Source: a virus. From it: a stretch of 28,437 bases of DNA. Shown in pieces: positions 4,010-27,243 of this stretch. The stretch covers positions 1-28,437 of IMG/VR virus record IMGVR_UViG_3300025110_000093. One strand, written 5' to 3'. Positions within the stretch are counted from its first letter, which is position 1. Each line of letters opens with the position of its first letter. The position numbers and the translations under genes were made by a program. The notes below the pieces were generated by a model that searched no databases, had not been told where the DNA came from, and worked only from the letters and a program-made list of their open reading frames with translations.

Positions 4010-5101
4010 TTAAAAGTAATGAACTAAACGAGCCACCTGACCACTTGTTTTTTCGTGCAAAAACCCTTCAACTGCTTTAGGAACTCCAACATATCCTTTT
4101 CTTGAGTGCCAACTATCAGTTCCTGATGGACTACGCATATACTCTACAGTAACCCCTATAAAGTCTTTAGCATCTAGCCACTTGTGTTTAACTTTGTGAT
4201 GTAAATGATGTAGATACCAATATCTATATTGAGTTTCGCTCCACATTATTGGTTTCTCTTGAGCCATCATTAAAGGTAAGTTTGCCATCTTAGCACCATC
4301 TCCATGCTCTAAGCCAATTAAGTTCTTACCATACTTATAATACTTTCTATGTGCTACACTAATATCAAAAGTAATATCTCTGTCGTTTCTAAACCAACTC
4401 TTTAATGCGTGTGCCAAATGAAACCCACTTTGATAATCATGATTACTCATTGAATGAACAACATCTACAGGTGCTACCTCTCTTAATATCTCTATACACT
4501 TAACATATAGTGCTAAAGCAACCTCAAAATGTTCCCACCACTTACCATCTACATCTTGACCTGTACCTGCTGTGGTTTGATTATATACATTATCAATATG
4601 TAAAACATCATTACCTATGCAAAATAATATCCTTTCTACCTCAAAGCCATCTGCCTTATATATAAGTCCTTCTAAGCCCTCTAAAACACGCATACAGGCA
4701 GTTTCTACATCATAACCATCACCAGTTTCAACTCCATTAGCATATTTACCTATATGTATGTCTGCAGGGTTTATTACTAATAGATGATTAGCATCTTTAT
4801 TATCTCTTTTTACTGAAGGGTAATAAGGTGAATGATTTTCAATGAAGTTGCTAATCTTATCTAACATATCATTTTCATTAGCAGTTATATCTTCTTTGGT
4901 TACAATGCTGAATCTGTACTCACCACTAGCAGATTGCCAATGTTTGACACTTACAACATCATCTTTTTTTATACCTCTCTCTGCAAGATGTATGTCTAGT
5001 GCTGTGTTTCCGTTAATATTTGTTGTGCTTTCTGCTCTATTTTCATAAACCATCTCAACTTCTTCTTCAGATAGTCTAAGTCTTTTACCATATTTCTTCA
5101 T
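4010..5101 (-). CDS. calcineurin-like metallophosphoesterase
   Basis: A 363-residue protein with all motifs of the metallophosphoesterase fold: ADIHIGKY (Asp114, His116), FCIGNDVLH (GND 163-165), MSNHDYQ (Asn220, His221, Asp222), GLEHGD (His266) and LHHLHH (298-302). Phage members are annotated as SbcD/Mre11-like DNA repair exonucleases. The residues for two-metal binding appear complete. The N-terminal 25 residues are basic and helical. The gene stands alone between a terminator-like hairpin (5160-5185) and the early promoter region. No SbcC-like ATPase partner is visible, so it may act alone in DNA processing or host DNA breakdown. Substrate not determinable. Confidence 0.75.
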   Translation of the reverse strand: MKKYGKRLRLSEEEVEMVYENRAESTTNINGNTALDIHLAERGIKKDDVVSVKHWQSASGEYRFSIVTKEDITANENDMLDKISNFIENHSPYYPSVKRDNKDANHLLVINPADIHIGKYANGVETGDGYDVETACMRVLEGLEGLIYKADGFEVERILFCIGNDVLHIDNVYNQTTAGTGQDVDGKWWEHFEVALALYVKCIEILREVAPVDVVHSMSNHDYQSGFHLAHALKSWFRNDRDITFDISVAHRKYYKYGKNLIGLEHGDGAKMANLPLMMAQEKPIMWSETQYRYWYLHHLHHKVKHKWLDAKDFIGVTVEYMRSPSGTDSWHSRKGYVGVPKAVEGFLHEKTSGQVARLVHYF

Positions 5102-5240: not shown

Positions 5241-5274
5241 CAAAGATAATTATTTTTTACAATTATCACTACAA
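5241..5274 (-). promoter_or_regulatory. weak promoter candidate before phosphoesterase
   Basis: Minus-strand TATCTTTG (5248-5241) is a perfect -7 element. The best upstream TTG (5274-5272) is 23 nt away, at the limit of the usual spacing. A transcript from here would run through the hairpin at 5185-5160 before the gene at 5101, so it might be attenuated. Part of it overlaps the holin stop region. Confidence 0.35.
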
Positions 5275-5528
5275 TTAATTTTATTTTTTTCAAATACTGA
5301 AAAGCATAATGGTAATATACCTAATCCTGTAAGTATCAAAGAGTTAGTATCAATACCATTTTTCTCAATGTATAAACTAGCAGCAATTACTATCACCCCA
5401 CTAATCGTTCTTTTACTACTCCACTTGCCTTTAGTGTCTGTAAAAAGTTCTTTTACTGCTTTTAATAATTCTGTTATTGGCTTTACACCACCCTTTAGTA
5501 ATGCTTGACCTATCCATTTCTGTATCAT
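5250..5528 (-). CDS. holin-like membrane protein
   Basis: A 92-residue protein with two likely membrane segments, TISGVIVIAASLYI (about 41-54) and LILTGLGILPLCFSVF (about 64-79), preceded by an amphipathic basic N-terminus and ending in a charged Lys/Asn tail. Size, topology and position next to the peptidase fit a class II holin that releases the endolysin or depolarises the membrane. Its ATG overlaps the stop of the previous small gene by one base. Family not identified; called holin from topology and context. Confidence 0.6.
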   Translation of the reverse strand: MIQKWIGQALLKGGVKPITELLKAVKELFTDTKGKWSSKRTISGVIVIAASLYIEKNGIDTNSLILTGLGILPLCFSVFEKNKINCSDNCKK

Positions 5529-11266: not shown

Positions 11267-11842
11267 TTATGCTCCTGCTGTTGCAGTTAATGCTGCAGTA
11301 TCAACAGTAACAGTACCTCTATACTCTCTTGGCAATTCAAATTGTCTTGCCATTAAGTTAATTGTAATACCATTCTCATCTGAATAAGCAGCACCTGTAC
11401 CACCCTCAAAACCTGTTAAACTCAAGAAAGTTTGGCTTTTTGCCTGAACATCCTCATTAGCGTATTTTGCACTAGCACCTAAAACCCACCAATTTCCATT
11501 AGTATCTAAAACCATTCCCATCATACAAGCATTTTCAAAGTTTTTTAATTCTTCAAATTTTGTTGCATCAATATTAGGAAGCATAAAAGATAAACCACAC
11601 TCAAAAGAAGTTGAACCATTCTCTTTTGTTGCAGTAATAGTCATTGCAGGTACTTCATTTTTAAACTCATAAACAAACCAAGCAGAATCACCACCTGATT
11701 GAATATTAGTAATAGTGTGTGCAGTTCCTATACCATAAGTAACTACATCTGCAGTAGCCCATTCTCTAATTAAAATTTGAGAAATACCACCTGTTGCTTG
11801 TAAGTCAGCACATACTACACCTAAACCTGTATCTATTGCCAT
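11267..11842 (-). CDS. putative tail-tube-like or minor virion protein
   Basis: A 191-residue, beta-rich protein immediately after the capsid gene and hairpin. The order ISQILIREWATADV, WFVYEFKNEVPAMTITAT, STSFECGLSFMLPNI, helix KFEELKNF, then MGMVLDTNGNWWVLG and a Gly-rich end resembles phage tail-tube/major tail proteins: strands, one helix, then a strand with an NGxxWxLG turn. The strong A/T leader with TAACTAA suggests high expression. A head decoration protein is the alternative. Confidence 0.45.
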   Translation of the reverse strand: MAIDTGLGVVCADLQATGGISQILIREWATADVVTYGIGTAHTITNIQSGGDSAWFVYEFKNEVPAMTITATKENGSTSFECGLSFMLPNIDATKFEELKNFENACMMGMVLDTNGNWWVLGASAKYANEDVQAKSQTFLSLTGFEGGTGAAYSDENGITINLMARQFELPREYRGTVTVDTAALTATAGA

Positions 11843-14853: not shown

Positions 14854-17508
14854 TTAAATTGTTGCCTCAGATTGTATTACACTTACTGAGTTTTGACTAT
14901 CAGTAATATCTGCTTCAACTACTACTACTTTACCAGAACTTCCCATAGCACCTACCATTTGATTCTGACCTATCGCATTAAATTGTTGTTGGCTAAATGA
15001 AGGTTGGTTAAGTAATCCACCATCTGCAAACTTAACACCACCTCCTGCAGCGTTCATTGCTGATAATTGTTTACTAAACATTGCTGTACTTCTTTTATTA
15101 ATAACAGCCTCGCCACCTTCTAATTCAACAACTCTACCACCTACTGCAAACTTCTCACCACCTTGTGCGTGTGATTTACCATGCACCATACCACCATTTG
15201 CAAATTCTTCAATCATTCCACCTCTTGCTTTTTTACTTATTCCTGCAACAGTTTGTGCTAAAATTCCTGCTATTGATAATGATGAAGTTATATTATTTGC
15301 AGATACTAATGCTGCAGCAGTTGCAACAGAAGAACCAAATGTTGGTATAGATAGAGCAAGACCTTCTGCAGTAATTTGAGCATTTGTTCTAAGGTTTGTA
15401 ACTATAACATCTTTTACTGCCATTGCTTGTTGAATTAAGAAGATAGCCTTCGCTAAATCACTCCCTTCTTCTGCAAACCCTGATGCAATATTCAAATACC
15501 CTCTTACTGCTGCTGCTTTCGCTTCTTGCAGTCCAACAAAAGCATCTCTCTCATTCTGCATATTCTGAAGTTTAATACCTTGTATTCTTTGTTCTTCAGT
15601 AAGTTCTAATTGTGCGTATTGTTGTTGAAGTGCAATTTTTTCTTCTTCAGATGTTAAAGTGTTTGCTAATTTTGCATTTATAAAATCTAACTGTACTTGT
15701 AATTTATCTTCATTGTAAAAAGTTTCTAATCCTTTTAAATATGCTTCTCTTTCCTCTAAAGATTTACCCTCTGCAAGAAATAATGCTTCTGCATATTCTA
15801 ATTGAAGGTCTAGTAATGCTTGGTTTTTTGCTTGTGTTTCATTAATAACCTCACTAACTTCTGGGTCGCCTTTATCTGCATCTTCTTTTGCTTTTTTAGC
15901 AGCATTAAGTCCATCCATTATATTTTTAAAACTTAATCCCAATTGCTTGGCAGTTTCTTTATATCCTTCAATTAATGTATCTTTATCATCTTCATAGTTA
16001 TCAATTATATCTTTATTAACAGCACCAAATGCTTCTGTTAAGTCTATATTCATCTGCAATGCTTGACTATTATTTTCATCTGCAATTAATAAATCTCTTT
16101 TTGATTCTGCTAATGATATATTGCTATTTACTTGCCCTTTAATTGCTTTTGATTGTGCTTTTGCTAACTCTGCTAATTCTTCTTCCATAGCCATAGCAAC
16201 AATTCTCTCCATCATTAAATTATTAACCTCAATCTGCATATCTCTTATATCTTCTAAGTCATCTTTTTCTGATACAAGATTAGGTAAGTAATCGCCATAT
16301 TTGTTATTCAAATCTTGAATAACCTGAACTCTAGCCTCTTGACTTAAATTACCTTGTGTTAATAAGGTGAATTGGTCATCCATTTCTTGAGTTGTTTGTT
16401 GTAGAAGTTCAAGGTTAGTTTGTTGAGGTGCTATAGAATCTGTAATTGCATTTGCAAACTTAGCCAAATTATCTACAAAATTTGCTAAAATACCACCCTT
16501 TTCACCCATTAATGCAATTTGTAATCCCTCTGTAGCAGAAGTAAATCTTTTAAATGAACCTTCAAGAGTATCGCCAACAATATCAGCCATTTCCTTTGCA
16601 GAACCATTTGCTAAATCTAATTGGTCTGTTAAATCTGAAATTCTCTCAGACCCATTAACCATTGTTTGAAATGCAGCAACCTGTCTTAAATCTACAAGTT
16701 TCATCATTTCAGCATTAGAAAGCCCTTCAGAATTTAATTGTTGTAATGCTCTTTCTAAATCATCTGAACTGTTTACTGTAAACCCTAAATGTTTTGATAA
16801 GTCAGATGCAGGGTCTTGCATTTTCAAGAATATGTTTCTTAAAGATGTACCTGCAATAGAAGCCTCAATACCTGCATCAGTAAGTGTACCCATAACTGCT
16901 GTAGTTGCTTCTAAAGATATGTTAGCACCTGCAGCAATAGGTGCAACCTTAGTCATAGATGTTTGGAATTTTTCAATATCTAAAGCAGAACTTGTAAATG
17001 CTTTAGCCATAACATCAGCAACCCTTGATGTTTCACTAGCATCCAATCCAAAACCCCTAACAGAAGCACCTGCTACGATAGCAGCCCTAGCCAAATCAGT
17101 ATCTGTTGCTGTAGCAAGTAAAAGAGTAGCCTCTTGAGCCTGAAGTATCTCTTTAGTTGAAAACCCTAACTTACCAAAATTAGTTTGCAACTCTGCAACT
17201 TGTTGTGCTGTAAAGAATGTTGAACGACCTAACTGTTGTGCTGTATTGCTTAATTTCTTAAAATCTATATTAGATGCACCAGTAATTGCCTTAACTTTAG
17301 CCATTTGAAATTCAAAATCTCTAAAAGATTTAATAGCACTACCTATAACTTTATTAATAGTTGCAAAAGCAGCAGCAGCAGCAGCAACCCCTGCAGCCAT
17401 CTTCCCAAAACTCTTAGTTGATTTATCTGCTGATTTACCTACTTTGTCTAACCCTTTTTGACCTTTTACTACTACCTGAACTACTATTTTCTCTGTATTT
17501 GTTGCCAT
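14854..17508 (-). CDS. tail tape measure protein, TP901 type
   Basis: An 884-residue protein. Residues about 66-240 match the TP901 core of phage tape measures: FQMAKVKAITG, LGRSTFFTAQQVAELQTNFG, ATLLLATATDTDLARAA, SVRGFGLDASETSRVADVMA, FQTSMTKVAPIAAGANISLE and MGTLTDAGIEAS. The N-terminus has an Ala-rich hydrophobic stretch (about 34-48). Residues about 380-670 form long charged coiled coils, followed by a hydrophobic region with small residues (about 690-765) and a Gly-rich tail. It sets tail length; with about 0.15 nm per residue this predicts a tail near 130 nm, which supports a siphovirus. Confidence 0.92.
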   Translation of the reverse strand: MATNTEKIVVQVVVKGQKGLDKVGKSADKSTKSFGKMAAGVAAAAAAFATINKVIGSAIKSFRDFEFQMAKVKAITGASNIDFKKLSNTAQQLGRSTFFTAQQVAELQTNFGKLGFSTKEILQAQEATLLLATATDTDLARAAIVAGASVRGFGLDASETSRVADVMAKAFTSSALDIEKFQTSMTKVAPIAAGANISLEATTAVMGTLTDAGIEASIAGTSLRNIFLKMQDPASDLSKHLGFTVNSSDDLERALQQLNSEGLSNAEMMKLVDLRQVAAFQTMVNGSERISDLTDQLDLANGSAKEMADIVGDTLEGSFKRFTSATEGLQIALMGEKGGILANFVDNLAKFANAITDSIAPQQTNLELLQQTTQEMDDQFTLLTQGNLSQEARVQVIQDLNNKYGDYLPNLVSEKDDLEDIRDMQIEVNNLMMERIVAMAMEEELAELAKAQSKAIKGQVNSNISLAESKRDLLIADENNSQALQMNIDLTEAFGAVNKDIIDNYEDDKDTLIEGYKETAKQLGLSFKNIMDGLNAAKKAKEDADKGDPEVSEVINETQAKNQALLDLQLEYAEALFLAEGKSLEEREAYLKGLETFYNEDKLQVQLDFINAKLANTLTSEEEKIALQQQYAQLELTEEQRIQGIKLQNMQNERDAFVGLQEAKAAAVRGYLNIASGFAEEGSDLAKAIFLIQQAMAVKDVIVTNLRTNAQITAEGLALSIPTFGSSVATAAALVSANNITSSLSIAGILAQTVAGISKKARGGMIEEFANGGMVHGKSHAQGGEKFAVGGRVVELEGGEAVINKRSTAMFSKQLSAMNAAGGGVKFADGGLLNQPSFSQQQFNAIGQNQMVGAMGSSGKVVVVEADITDSQNSVSVIQSEATI

Positions 17509-23235: not shown

Positions 23236-24375
23236 TTAATATATTTTATATTTTAAATTTAAGTAACCTCTTACTTCAGCAATTTCAGTATCAGTTAAGG
23301 CTCTGTTAAAAATTATTAATTCGTTTAATTGTCCATCCATATAATTTGTGCTATTATAAGAGCCAATATTAAATGTTGCAGTATTGAAAACAAAAGTATT
23401 ATCAAAACTTGAATCATTATCATTAGCAGTTATAGAATTTGCAGAATCATAATATTCTAAATCTATTCTTTTGTTATTTTTCTTTAATATTGATATATGA
23501 TTATTCGCTTTATTATCTACAGAAGTATTTGCAGTTATTGTATTAGTTCCATCACTTACTGTAGCAGTAATATATCCACTAGCATTAGTTCCTATAGATA
23601 TAGCAGCACTTGAATTATACCATCCAAATACATTATCACTTGCTTTATCAATTCTACTTACTTCAAATATTGTAAAGTCTGTTGTTACAGGTAAATTACT
23701 TCCTGAAATAAAAGTATCATTAGTACCATCAAAATCTAAATATGCTTTGTCGTTAATACCATCATACCCATATCTTAGTGGTTGATTTGCTGCTGTAGTC
23801 TGAGCAACATTATTGCTATTACCTGATTGGTCAGCCCAAGCACTAACTCTTTTAGATGCTATGTCAAATGTAACACCACTATCTGATTTTAACCATACTT
23901 TTAAATCAGAATAATCTGATGGGTAGTTAGATACAGGTCTGAAGCATTTTGTAAACGCACTCATAGTAAATGTTAGTTTTATTTGCACCAATCTATCATT
24001 TGCCACTTCTTTAACTCTTTCTATAGCAATACTCTCATCTTCTAAGTACGCTTCTACATTTGCATCTTGATAATTTTTAAGTACCATATCTAGCCACTCA
24101 TTAGCCAAATCTTGTAAATTATCCCATCTCTTTTGAAGTGTAACTACTGATTGTGCTGCTTGAGAGTATAAATTATAGAAGTTTATTTCAAATGTATATT
24201 CTTCTCTACCATTATACACCACAGGTATAGTTGATTCAGGTGGTTCAACTAGCATTAATGGGTACTGAGTGTCATGGTCTTGGTTTACTTCACTTTCGTA
24301 ACCAAATTTTACATCACCATAAGTCCATTTGCTGTCAAATACTGTTATTATGTCTGTTAATCTTGTTATTGCCAT
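23236..24375 (-). CDS. tail protein fused to lectin-like domain
   Basis: A 379-residue protein in two parts. Residues 1-150 form an alpha/beta domain (DVKFGYESEVNQDHDTQYPL, EEYTFEINFYNLYS, RWDNLQDLANEWLDM, RLVQIKLTFTMSAF) that resembles small phage tail or neck proteins. Residues about 155-379 are a LamG/concanavalin-like jelly roll (LKVWLKSDSG, SAWADQSGNSNN, AYLDFDGTND, DFTIFEVSRID, MDGQLNELIIFNRAL). The lectin half is related to the protein at 7150-7830. The fusion probably places a glycan-binding domain on the tail for host attachment. Confidence 0.65.
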   Translation of the reverse strand: MAITRLTDIITVFDSKWTYGDVKFGYESEVNQDHDTQYPLMLVEPPESTIPVVYNGREEYTFEINFYNLYSQAAQSVVTLQKRWDNLQDLANEWLDMVLKNYQDANVEAYLEDESIAIERVKEVANDRLVQIKLTFTMSAFTKCFRPVSNYPSDYSDLKVWLKSDSGVTFDIASKRVSAWADQSGNSNNVAQTTAANQPLRYGYDGINDKAYLDFDGTNDTFISGSNLPVTTDFTIFEVSRIDKASDNVFGWYNSSAAISIGTNASGYITATVSDGTNTITANTSVDNKANNHISILKKNNKRIDLEYYDSANSITANDNDSSFDNTFVFNTATFNIGSYNSTNYMDGQLNELIIFNRALTDTEIAEVRGYLNLKYKIY

Positions 24376-24377
24376 TA

Positions 24378-24716
24378 TTACAATGTTATATTATTTTTAT
24401 TATGTATTTTCTCTTGAACAGCAATTTCATAGTCGTTTTTAGCAGTATTCCAACTTAAATAAGTCAAAACCTTGTATAAATTTGTTTTCTTCACACTATC
24501 TATGTCATTTTCACCATTCATTCTAAATATCCCTTTTTCTGCAACCATATATAAACTATTAAGCCAACCATAAGGCTTTATGAACTTGTTGTAGATTCCA
24601 ACTGTAGAAACTCTATTTTTGCTTCCTCCACTTCTTCCTCTGTTTTCCCCAAAAACATTTGGAAAGTCCTTGTTAATTTTACGCTTTGCATTGTCAAAAA
24701 AAAACTGAACTCCCAC
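24378..24716 (-). CDS. tail assembly chaperone frameshift extension (GT-like)
   Basis: A 112-codon frame in the -1 frame relative to the upstream chaperone, overlapping it by 139 nt. Its only in-frame start near the overlap is a GTG inside the T9 region, so independent initiation is unlikely. If ribosomes slip at 24704-24696, the 187 first residues of the upstream protein are joined to 106 of these (FDNAKRKINKDFPNVFG onward), a 293-residue product. The extension is basic with helices (YNKFIKPYGWLNSLYMVAEK). This is the lambda G/GT arrangement. Confidence 0.65.
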   Translation of the reverse strand: MGVQFFFDNAKRKINKDFPNVFGENRGRSGGSKNRVSTVGIYNKFIKPYGWLNSLYMVAEKGIFRMNGENDIDSVKKTNLYKVLTYLSWNTAKNDYEIAVQEKIHNKNNITL

Positions 24717-25258
24717 ACGAAGTCCATTGTCAATTCTTTAAACTTTTCAGTTTTGGCAGGTACTGCATCATCATCATATTCCTCATCAGCCCTTCTGCAC
24801 AGTATTGCCATTTGCTCTGGTAATACATCAAACCTTCCATGTTTCATTATCTCTATCGTACTCTCTAAGTGAGTTGATTCAATATAATCTCCAAATGTGT
24901 TTCTTCTTAGAAATTCTTTTGGAAATAGATATTCCTCACCCTCAAATTCAAATTTATCTATTCCTTTTGGCTTATATTCTTCTAATGTTTGTGAGAATAT
25001 TGCTACTGCATTATTTACACTATCAACATCTAGCATATTCATCTCATTATGGCTAACACCTGTAATATACATGAAAATATCTCTATTCATCTTCAATAAC
25101 TCTACTTGAGAGTGTTCTGCTTCAATAACATTACCTTCATCATCTCTTTTGTTGTACTGATTGATAATTGAGTATAGTCCACACCAATATCTAAGTGTTA
25201 TATCCTTCCATTCAGTTGGAATATCATAACTTTTTTCTTGAATTTTAATTTCAACCAT
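24578..25258 (-). CDS. tail assembly chaperone (G-like)
   Basis: A 226-residue protein upstream of the tail genes. Segments SYDIPTEWKDITLRYWCGLY, YKPKGIDKFEFEGEEYLFPK and LESTIEIMKHGRFDVLPEQM suggest a mostly helical chaperone of the phage tail type. The final part after residue 187 is only in the unshifted form. In tailed phages such chaperones bind the tape measure during tail assembly. It begins about 6 nt after the unknown gene at 25264, and its end overlaps the extension frame. Confidence 0.65.
   Translation of the reverse strand: MVEIKIQEKSYDIPTEWKDITLRYWCGLYSIINQYNKRDDEGNVIEAEHSQVELLKMNRDIFMYITGVSHNEMNMLDVDSVNNAVAIFSQTLEEYKPKGIDKFEFEGEEYLFPKEFLRRNTFGDYIESTHLESTIEIMKHGRFDVLPEQMAILCRRADEEYDDDAVPAKTEKFKELTMDFVWEFSFFLTMQSVKLTRTFQMFLGKTEEEVEEAKIEFLQLESTTSS
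24696..24704 (-). promoter_or_regulatory. T9 slippery site for -1 frameshift
   Basis: The minus-strand RNA reads AGU UUU UUU UUG ACA in the chaperone frame, which contains the classic heptamer U UUU UUU. A -1 slip on UUU UUU puts the ribosome in the frame that reads UUU GAC AAU GCA, exactly the overlapping extension. No other long homopolymer is in the overlap. No stimulatory hairpin was recognised by eye. Confidence 0.7.
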
Positions 25259-25800: not shown

Positions 25801-27243
25801 TTAATTAAAGTAAACTACCTTGCCTCCACCACCCCAAATTTCCTTATTTACAGCCATAACTAAACAATCTACCATATCATCATGTTTTGCTGCTGGAAAT
25901 CTGGTGAGTTGGTCAAGAAACTCTCTATTCCAATCTCCATTTAGTAAACTCACTCTACCACTCTCAAGTGAGGCACTAATATCACTAACTCTCGCTACTT
26001 TGTCTTTTGTTGGTGGTTTATCTTCTTTAACATTAAGTCCTGTTTCTCTAACTAATGTTTGTACAATAGATTTACCTGATGCTTTAGGCTCTACAAATAT
26101 TCGGCTTTTTGTAGTATATCCATTCTTTTTTACCCATTGAGGAATGAATTTAACTAATTCAGGAAATTCTTTATGTACATTAATACAATCTACTATCTGC
26201 CATTTGTTGTCTTTATAGGTATATGCTAGTAGTGCTGATGGGTCATTCTTTTGATTTGCAGTATATGCAGGATCAATAACAAAGTTTACTGTAGCCTCAT
26301 CCTTTCTATATCTATCAATCTTAAACCAATCTTTATGAATCATACCACTATCTAGTGGTGTTGGTGTTTGTTGTAGTTGCCCTGCATAACCATAAGTACC
26401 TAATGCACTCTTATAGTCATCTAATACCTCTTTACTAAATCTATCTTCCCAAAACAAGCCATTTTCTTTATTATAAAACTTTTCTAGTGATTTTGGTTTG
26501 ATATTACCATCTTCATTTGTTGCAGGTATGCAAATGTGTTTATATTTTGTTCTTGTTTCCCTATCTAACAAGAAACCACTTAAATCTTCTTCATGCACTC
26601 TTTGCATAATTATAATCCTCACTCCAATATCTGCTTGATTCAATCTTGAGTAGAATGTTGTCCTATACCATTCATTAGCGTTTTCTCTTTCGGTTGCTGA
26701 GTTTGCCATTTGAGGTGATAGAGGGTCATCTACAATTAGGAAATCTCCACCCTGCCCTGTTACAGTACCACCAACAGATGTTGCTCTTCTCATTCCAATA
26801 TGATTATTCTCATATCTCTCTTTTAAGTTTTGGTCTTTTTTAATGTGAAATACATCACCCCATCTTTTCTTAAACCAATCACTAAATATTATATCTCTTG
26901 ATTTAGTTGCAAGTTCAATAGATAGTGTAGCAGAATAAGAAGAAGTAATGAATCTTAGTTTAGGAGATTTTATCCAAGCCCATACTGGAAACATAACAGT
27001 AACTATTAATGATTTCGTACTTCTAAAAGGTACATTAATAATTATATCTTTAGTTTTTGGCTTTTGTGCTATTATTCTCTCACATTCTTCTTGTAGAGTA
27101 TCGCATATATATTTATGATGCCAATTAGTTGATAATGGTACTGCAGGTTCTACTACTATCCAAGCAGCCTTAAAGAACTCATAGAAACTCATCTCACATA
27201 GTTTCTTTTCAAGTGCGAACTTTAATAATTTTTTATTAGTCAT
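25801..27243 (-). CDS. terL: terminase large subunit
   Basis: A 480-residue packaging motor. Residues 71-78 are the Walker A equivalent (VPFRSTKS), following a beta strand DIIIN. Walker B is FLIVDD (168-173) and a coupling-type motif is IIMQRVHEED (211-220). The nuclease domain is visible with DPAYTANQKNDPS (Asp324), RIFVEPKASG (Glu385) and AAKHDDMVDC (Asp455/456/459), all matching the large terminase RNase H fold. The Walker A sequence is unusual in having RSTKS where GK(S/T) is preceded by Gly. The gene overlaps the small-terminase gene by 8 nt. Confidence 0.9.
   Translation of the reverse strand: MTNKKLLKFALEKKLCEMSFYEFFKAAWIVVEPAVPLSTNWHHKYICDTLQEECERIIAQKPKTKDIIINVPFRSTKSLIVTVMFPVWAWIKSPKLRFITSSYSATLSIELATKSRDIIFSDWFKKRWGDVFHIKKDQNLKERYENNHIGMRRATSVGGTVTGQGGDFLIVDDPLSPQMANSATERENANEWYRTTFYSRLNQADIGVRIIIMQRVHEEDLSGFLLDRETRTKYKHICIPATNEDGNIKPKSLEKFYNKENGLFWEDRFSKEVLDDYKSALGTYGYAGQLQQTPTPLDSGMIHKDWFKIDRYRKDEATVNFVIDPAYTANQKNDPSALLAYTYKDNKWQIVDCINVHKEFPELVKFIPQWVKKNGYTTKSRIFVEPKASGKSIVQTLVRETGLNVKEDKPPTKDKVARVSDISASLESGRVSLLNGDWNREFLDQLTRFPAAKHDDMVDCLVMAVNKEIWGGGGKVVYFN

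Follow-up and report, generated by a model that had tools for sequence, protein, structure and literature searches.

The window, that is, the whole stretch of 28,437 nucleotides of IMG/VR virus record IMGVR_UViG_3300025110_000093 that was analyzed, carries on its minus strand an open reading frame of 226 amino acids (positions 24578 to 25258; ATG at 25258, stop at 24578), the predicted G-like short product of the gene studied here. Within this frame lies a run of nine T's (T9; 24696 to 24704, minus strand), which is read as AGT TTT TTT TTG and places a U_UUU_UUU heptamer (24704 to 24698) in the X_XXY_YYZ phase. The -1 frame is open, stop to stop, from 24737 to 24378 on the same strand. From the slip site onward it encodes a predicted extension of 106 codons (24381 to 24698, minus strand, with its stop at 24378 to 24380), a candidate T-like domain carrying the motif P[FY]GWLNSLYxLAEKxVF. 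A -1 shift at T9 would yield a fusion of 293 residues, with EFSFFFDNAK as the predicted sequence across the joint. The +1 frame is closed right at the end of the run by a TGA (24694 to 24696, minus strand), so translation of a message lacking one U would terminate there.

An earlier note on this DNA had described two tail-chaperone frames joined by a programmed -1 frameshift at this T9 site. The exact -1 relation of the second frame, the phase of the heptamer, and the product lengths (293 residues for the fusion and 226 for the unshifted form) were all borne out. The reported overlap of 139 nt holds if counted from the GTG at 24716 and is 160 nt if counted from stop to stop; the overlap does lack an ATG, as claimed, though that GTG is present.

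Two T9 runs were found on the minus strand of the window, compared with 0.65 runs of nine or more expected from a first-order Markov estimate. In such an AT-rich window a T9 alone is within chance, so the run by itself means little and conservation is the evidence. The second T9 (5142 to 5134, minus strand) is intergenic; it lies with two terminator-like hairpins in the segment from 5232 to 5134, between the genes at 5250 to 5528 and 4010 to 5101. An AlphaFold model of the frame-0 protein had a mean pLDDT of 76 and a pTM of 0.69. The extension modelled alone was of moderate quality (pLDDT 68.5) and had no match in a fold search of the PDB.

Upstream of the shift gene lies the terminase large subunit gene (TerL; 25801 to 27243, minus strand; phrog_38, E = 1e-99), and a 145-aa ORF stands between the two. 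The shift gene is followed by a gene of 379 amino acids (23236 to 24375, minus strand), which combines an N-terminal part that is, in our reading, tail-terminator-like with a LamG-like domain. Large tail genes, an HK97-gp10-like gene, and the tape-measure protein gene (14854 to 17508, same direction, approximately 7 kb downstream; phrog_1533, E = 1e-61; PF10145, E = 1e-34) come next. A candidate tail-tube protein of 191 amino acids is encoded at 11267 to 11842.

Relatives of the window gene (family 1) were collected from IMG/VR with the frame-0 protein, its profiles, and the -1 extension, and they reach down to approximately 45% identity. Every family-1 relative examined had exactly T9 at the same position and retained an extension of approximately 101 to 107 amino acids. 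For one of these scans (A1) the result is not circular, since it used peptide patterns distant from the site. The residue before the two phenylalanines (FF) was Ser, Ala, or Gly, always encoded by AGT, GCT, or GGT, and in family 1 the heptamer is followed by two T's and preceded by none. Substitutions in the extension numbered 256, 155, and 601 at codon positions 1, 2, and 3, respectively, a periodicity expected of coding in the -1 frame. A tblastn search of INPHARED with family-1 proteins gave no match, and two scans of genome contigs found no relative. Immediately upstream of the slip codons, the window has GAGTTC (24707 to 24712, minus strand), which is kept at synonymous positions in family 1 (GAG in 73 of 77 and TTC in 76 of 77), including in members with another residue in place of the Trp ahead of it; TTC makes up only 21% of the Phe codons in the genes of the window.

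The AlphaFold model of the frame-0 protein matched BFVD entries that included I6R9M9 of Nonlabens phage P12024S and R9VW65 of Flavobacterium phage 6H. I6R9M9 corresponds to P12024S_38 (assigned by protein length), the gene directly after TerL, and its slip site is a T9 read as CTT TTT TTT TAT, from which the -1 frame runs on into a related domain. P12024S and P12024L (Nonlabens, Persicivirga) thus resemble the window in having a homologous N-domain and extension, a T9, and a gene directly after TerL. P12024S_38 differs in that its run is offset one base upstream with respect to the codons and in being unannotated as a shift. It is only 31 to 35% identical to the members of its family (family 2, a second large group) that were tested, and from the window it is detectable only through fold or profile. 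Profile comparison by hhalign aligned the two families over the N-domain (E = 1.6e-10) and over the extension (E = 3e-10), and the N-domain alignment has the FF-codon region close to its end; by these profiles, both domains are homologous across family 1 and family 2.

Relatives of P12024S_38 were checked at the run, and those examined had T9 or T10. An independent family-2 set was assembled through the extension only, with the pattern F[GNS]x[KQR]WGWY, which is located far from the run and matched at least 600 stretches. Among the matches listed, 80 loci were kept, with T9 in 61 and T10 in 19; none had a run of 7, of 8, or of more than 10. Family 2 has one or two T's before the heptamer and one or two after it, and in one relative (L500) the T before the heptamer is lost and three follow. 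A change of the second Phe codon from TTT to TTC would be silent in both frames when TAT, TAC, or TGG follows, and it was never seen in the 80 kept loci among the matches listed. In Flavobacterium phage 6H (approximately 10927 to 10050, minus strand), the protein AGN89393 is a fold relative, and downstream of it lies a -1-frame segment (MKGVLLSMAESGVYG...) that is unannotated and resembles the extension. No clear shift site joining AGN89393 to this segment was found; a -1-frame stop follows a T6C site.

Across both families, the run was 9 or 10 nucleotides long at all 242 distinct sites from IMG/VR or phage genomes (242/242). Because the script that compiled these sites accepted only runs of at least T7 containing an all-T heptamer in phase, the statement that the run is never shorter rests instead on separate listings, in which a run near the site was reported at any length from 6 up or the longest run was taken. 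In these listings, the relatives examined always had T9 or T10 and never T7 or T8. Background runs of T6, T7, T8, T9, and T10 at the same loci numbered 339, 96, 36, 10, and 2, respectively. The codon before the core varies (AGT, GCT, GGT, GTT, CTT, ATT), as does the residue before FF (S, A, G, V, I, L, F), and the third base stays T. Across the superfamily the run begins in all three codon phases, yet each run still includes an in-phase heptamer, with a shift of -1 in every case. We chose as representatives 80 sites sharing less than 80% identity with one another over 300 nt, 25 from family 1 and 55 from family 2. The +1 frame meets an immediate stop in all 25 family-1 representatives (background, 10.5%) and closes within three codons in family 2 (background, 37.5%); these representatives are relatives of one another, and the rapid closure may be a consequence of amino-acid constraint.

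These sequence comparisons show conservation of the run, the frame, and both domains, and on that conservation rests the conclusion that the frameshift is used. The earlier note had made its proposal depend on the T run and the -1 frame being kept in relatives, and both were kept in all those examined. Its programmed -1 shift at T9 is therefore well supported, and the two products are predicted. As in lambda-type G/GT genes, the conserved run, frame, and extension place a -1 shift near the 3' end that would give two products.

The best-known system of this kind is lambda gpG/gpGT with its HK97-type relatives, in which, as in the window, one tail-module gene with a -1 shift near its end gives a short form and a two-domain long form. 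The slip site in lambda is G_GGA_AAG, whereas that of the window gene is a homopolymer. The window gene also differs in having no sequence match to the lambda gene, in lying near the terminase rather than between the tail tube and the tape measure, and in its longer N-domain (226 amino acids) and extension (approximately 106 amino acids). We propose, with a probability of roughly 0.78, that one gene gives rise to forms of 226 and 293 amino acids with T9 as the switch and works like gpG/gpGT. Both forms would share the first approximately 187 residues, and the long form would add a predicted helical domain of approximately 106 residues from the -1 frame.

The shift could be made by the ribosome or by RNA polymerase, since ribosomal -1 slippage on U_UUU_UUU and the insertion of one extra U lead to the identical fusion. 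A purely ribosomal mechanism, which we regard as possible but give less than even odds, would consist of tandem -1 slippage of two tRNA-Phe on U_UUU_UUU, with the additional T's fixed by the amino acids encoded. An in-phase heptamer at every site and a shift that is -1 throughout are what this mechanism predicts, although any T9 contains such a heptamer. The lambda G/GT shift is ribosomal (PMC5009743), and two tail-chaperone genes assayed elsewhere shifted at 6 to 7% (PMC3711429). The absence of T7 and T8 from the relatives examined speaks against a purely ribosomal shift, as does the absence of U_UUU_UUC, which is also X_XXY_YYZ and is synonymous in both family-2 frames. In E. coli, U_UUU_UUU is reported to be much less shift-prone than A_AAA_AAG (PMC5009743).

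A stimulator, which is common though not obligatory at ribosomal frameshift sites, was not found. No conserved stem-loop or pseudoknot was detected downstream (mean downstream-fold z = -0.24 and -0.13), and single downstream folds differ from relative to relative. SD-like motifs lie upstream in 18 of the 25 family-1 representatives and in only 5 of the 55 from family 2. An upstream Shine-Dalgarno stimulator was considered and rejected, GGGAG occurring in many family-1 members, though at 5 nt, and being absent from most of family 2. Anti-SD pairing is, moreover, largely unavailable in Bacteroidia ribosomes (PMC8710568).

Slippage of RNA polymerase on T9 to T10, with one U inserted or two dropped, has in our estimate about an even chance of being the mechanism, and joint action of ribosome and polymerase is quite unlikely. 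Bacterial slippage on runs of nine A's or T's is established (PMC5009743), and a run of about this length or more is present at every site. Polymerase slippage is favored because the run is never shorter than nine although the flanking codons differ, and because downstream structure is absent and SD-like motifs are few in family 2; closure of the +1 frame within three codons in all representatives was also counted for it. On the length floor of nine and the missing stimulators, we lean slightly towards polymerase slippage. Few independent events (family 1, family 2, and L500) underlie the compensation of length around the heptamer, and constraint on the amino acids could account for some of this compensation. 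As for a ribosomal shift at the U UUU UUU of the earlier note, the heptamer is indeed in phase, but polymerase slippage gives the same product and fits the length of 9 to 10 at least equally well.

Transcriptional slippage in Shigella mxiE and Thermus thermophilus dnaX provides a parallel, in that a run of nine A's or T's is used and an extra U in the window gene would give an extension of the same kind. The slip run of mxiE is U9. That of dnaX is nine nucleotides long (PMC5009743). Both are cellular genes with RNA evidence, whereas in the window it is the length of the run that suggests slippage. A further parallel is the gp56/gp57 pair of Cellulophaga phage phi17:1, two overlapping genes of a Bacteroidota tail module whose junction holds a homopolymer (A9 or A10); it differs from the window in having an A run and the classical place before the tape measure, and the likeness is one of arrangement. 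The junction of phi17:1 (28610 to 29322) carries A10 with a -1-frame extension, and those of phi12:1 and phi18:1 carry A9 with a +1-frame extension. In each of the three phages, a message with 8 or 11 A's at this run would bring the two frames together. The A9/A10 difference fits polymerase slippage or a sequencing indel.

That the shift gene encodes a tail assembly chaperone is plausible from its anatomy and position. The earlier note had named it as such, and in support of this the gene stands first in the tail module, which holds no second pair of this kind; against it, the gene lies near the terminase, approximately 7 kb ahead of the tape-measure gene and not immediately before it as in lambda, and Pfam and PHROGs gave no match to a chaperone family. 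A PDB fold search returned nothing below E = 0.001, and the only chaperone-named match in BFVD was weak (E = 0.35). In neither family does the gene lie between the tail-tube and tape-measure genes, and similarity in sequence or fold to known chaperone families was not found; on these grounds we say that it works like gpG/gpGT and assign no membership. The short form would, by analogy with lambda gpG/gpGT, coat the tape measure, and the extension of the minority long form would recruit tail-tube subunits.

Alternatively, the shift may be real and the protein another two-form tail or packaging factor, an explanation that we judge rather unlikely. Besides the lack of a chaperone family match, it is favored by the position of the gene near TerL, approximately 7 kb from the tape measure. 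Against it, the gene opens the tail module in both families and is followed by a terminator-like gene, and neither the window, where an 11-nt gap is found, nor the relative L484 has any other overlapping G/GT-like pair ahead of the tape measure. Synteny is kept, including in family 2, in the order TerL, shift gene, tail genes, phrog_38559 gene, and tape measure. The family-2 counterparts of the 379-aa gene, at approximately 150 amino acids, are too short for its LamG-like domain.

It is highly improbable that the two frames are separate genes with no shift, the second using a start of its own (the GTG at 24716 or similar). An xTG GGA GTT CAG sequence is present in the -1 frame of most family-1 members and could serve as such a start. 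However, family-1 members have a -1-frame stop directly ahead of the run (L063) or 6 nt ahead of it (L064, L217, and others), which leaves no way for their extension to be initiated independently ahead of the run. In 34 of the 55 family-2 representatives, the -1 frame contains no ATG, GTG, or TTG from the upstream stop to the conserved WGWY motif, and a second frame that lacks a start codon in many members is reachable by a shift only. With separate genes, the T run would also have no reason to be conserved. An independent start was rejected on these three grounds. A homopolymer sequencing or assembly indel, or a broken gene, has a practically negligible probability even though homopolymers are error-prone, because the isolates P12024S and P12024L and 242 distinct sites drawn from many samples all show the same run and frame relation.

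The related viral sequences are probably from Bacteroidota phages. The Bacteroidota host given in the earlier note fits, as the isolates of named host with the nearest TerL are Croceibacter, Chryseobacterium, and Cellulophaga phages, and P12024S adds to this support; in the isolates with the nearest TerL, the shift gene was absent after TerL.

Recoded tail chaperones are known and count, in the PRFect and GeneTack papers, as programmed frameshifting or recoding. Our literature search, which had most subscription journals outside its scope, found no paper on this family or on transcriptional slippage in tail chaperones. Under the proposed reading of one gene with two products and a T9 switch, two linked and unannotated protein families from hundreds of viral contigs join the recoded tail genes, and the shift explains why the second domain was missed or called a stray ORF. 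That a large and mostly uncultured group of Bacteroidota phages sets its tail-protein ratio by polymerase slippage on T9 to T10, through two kinds of message, is a tentative proposal to which we give slightly less than an even chance. The strict length of 9 to 10 with no detectable stimulator offers a clear test of polymerase against ribosome in setting the ratio of a phage tail protein, and this question of mechanism arises in hosts where Shine-Dalgarno pairing plays little part in ribosome function.
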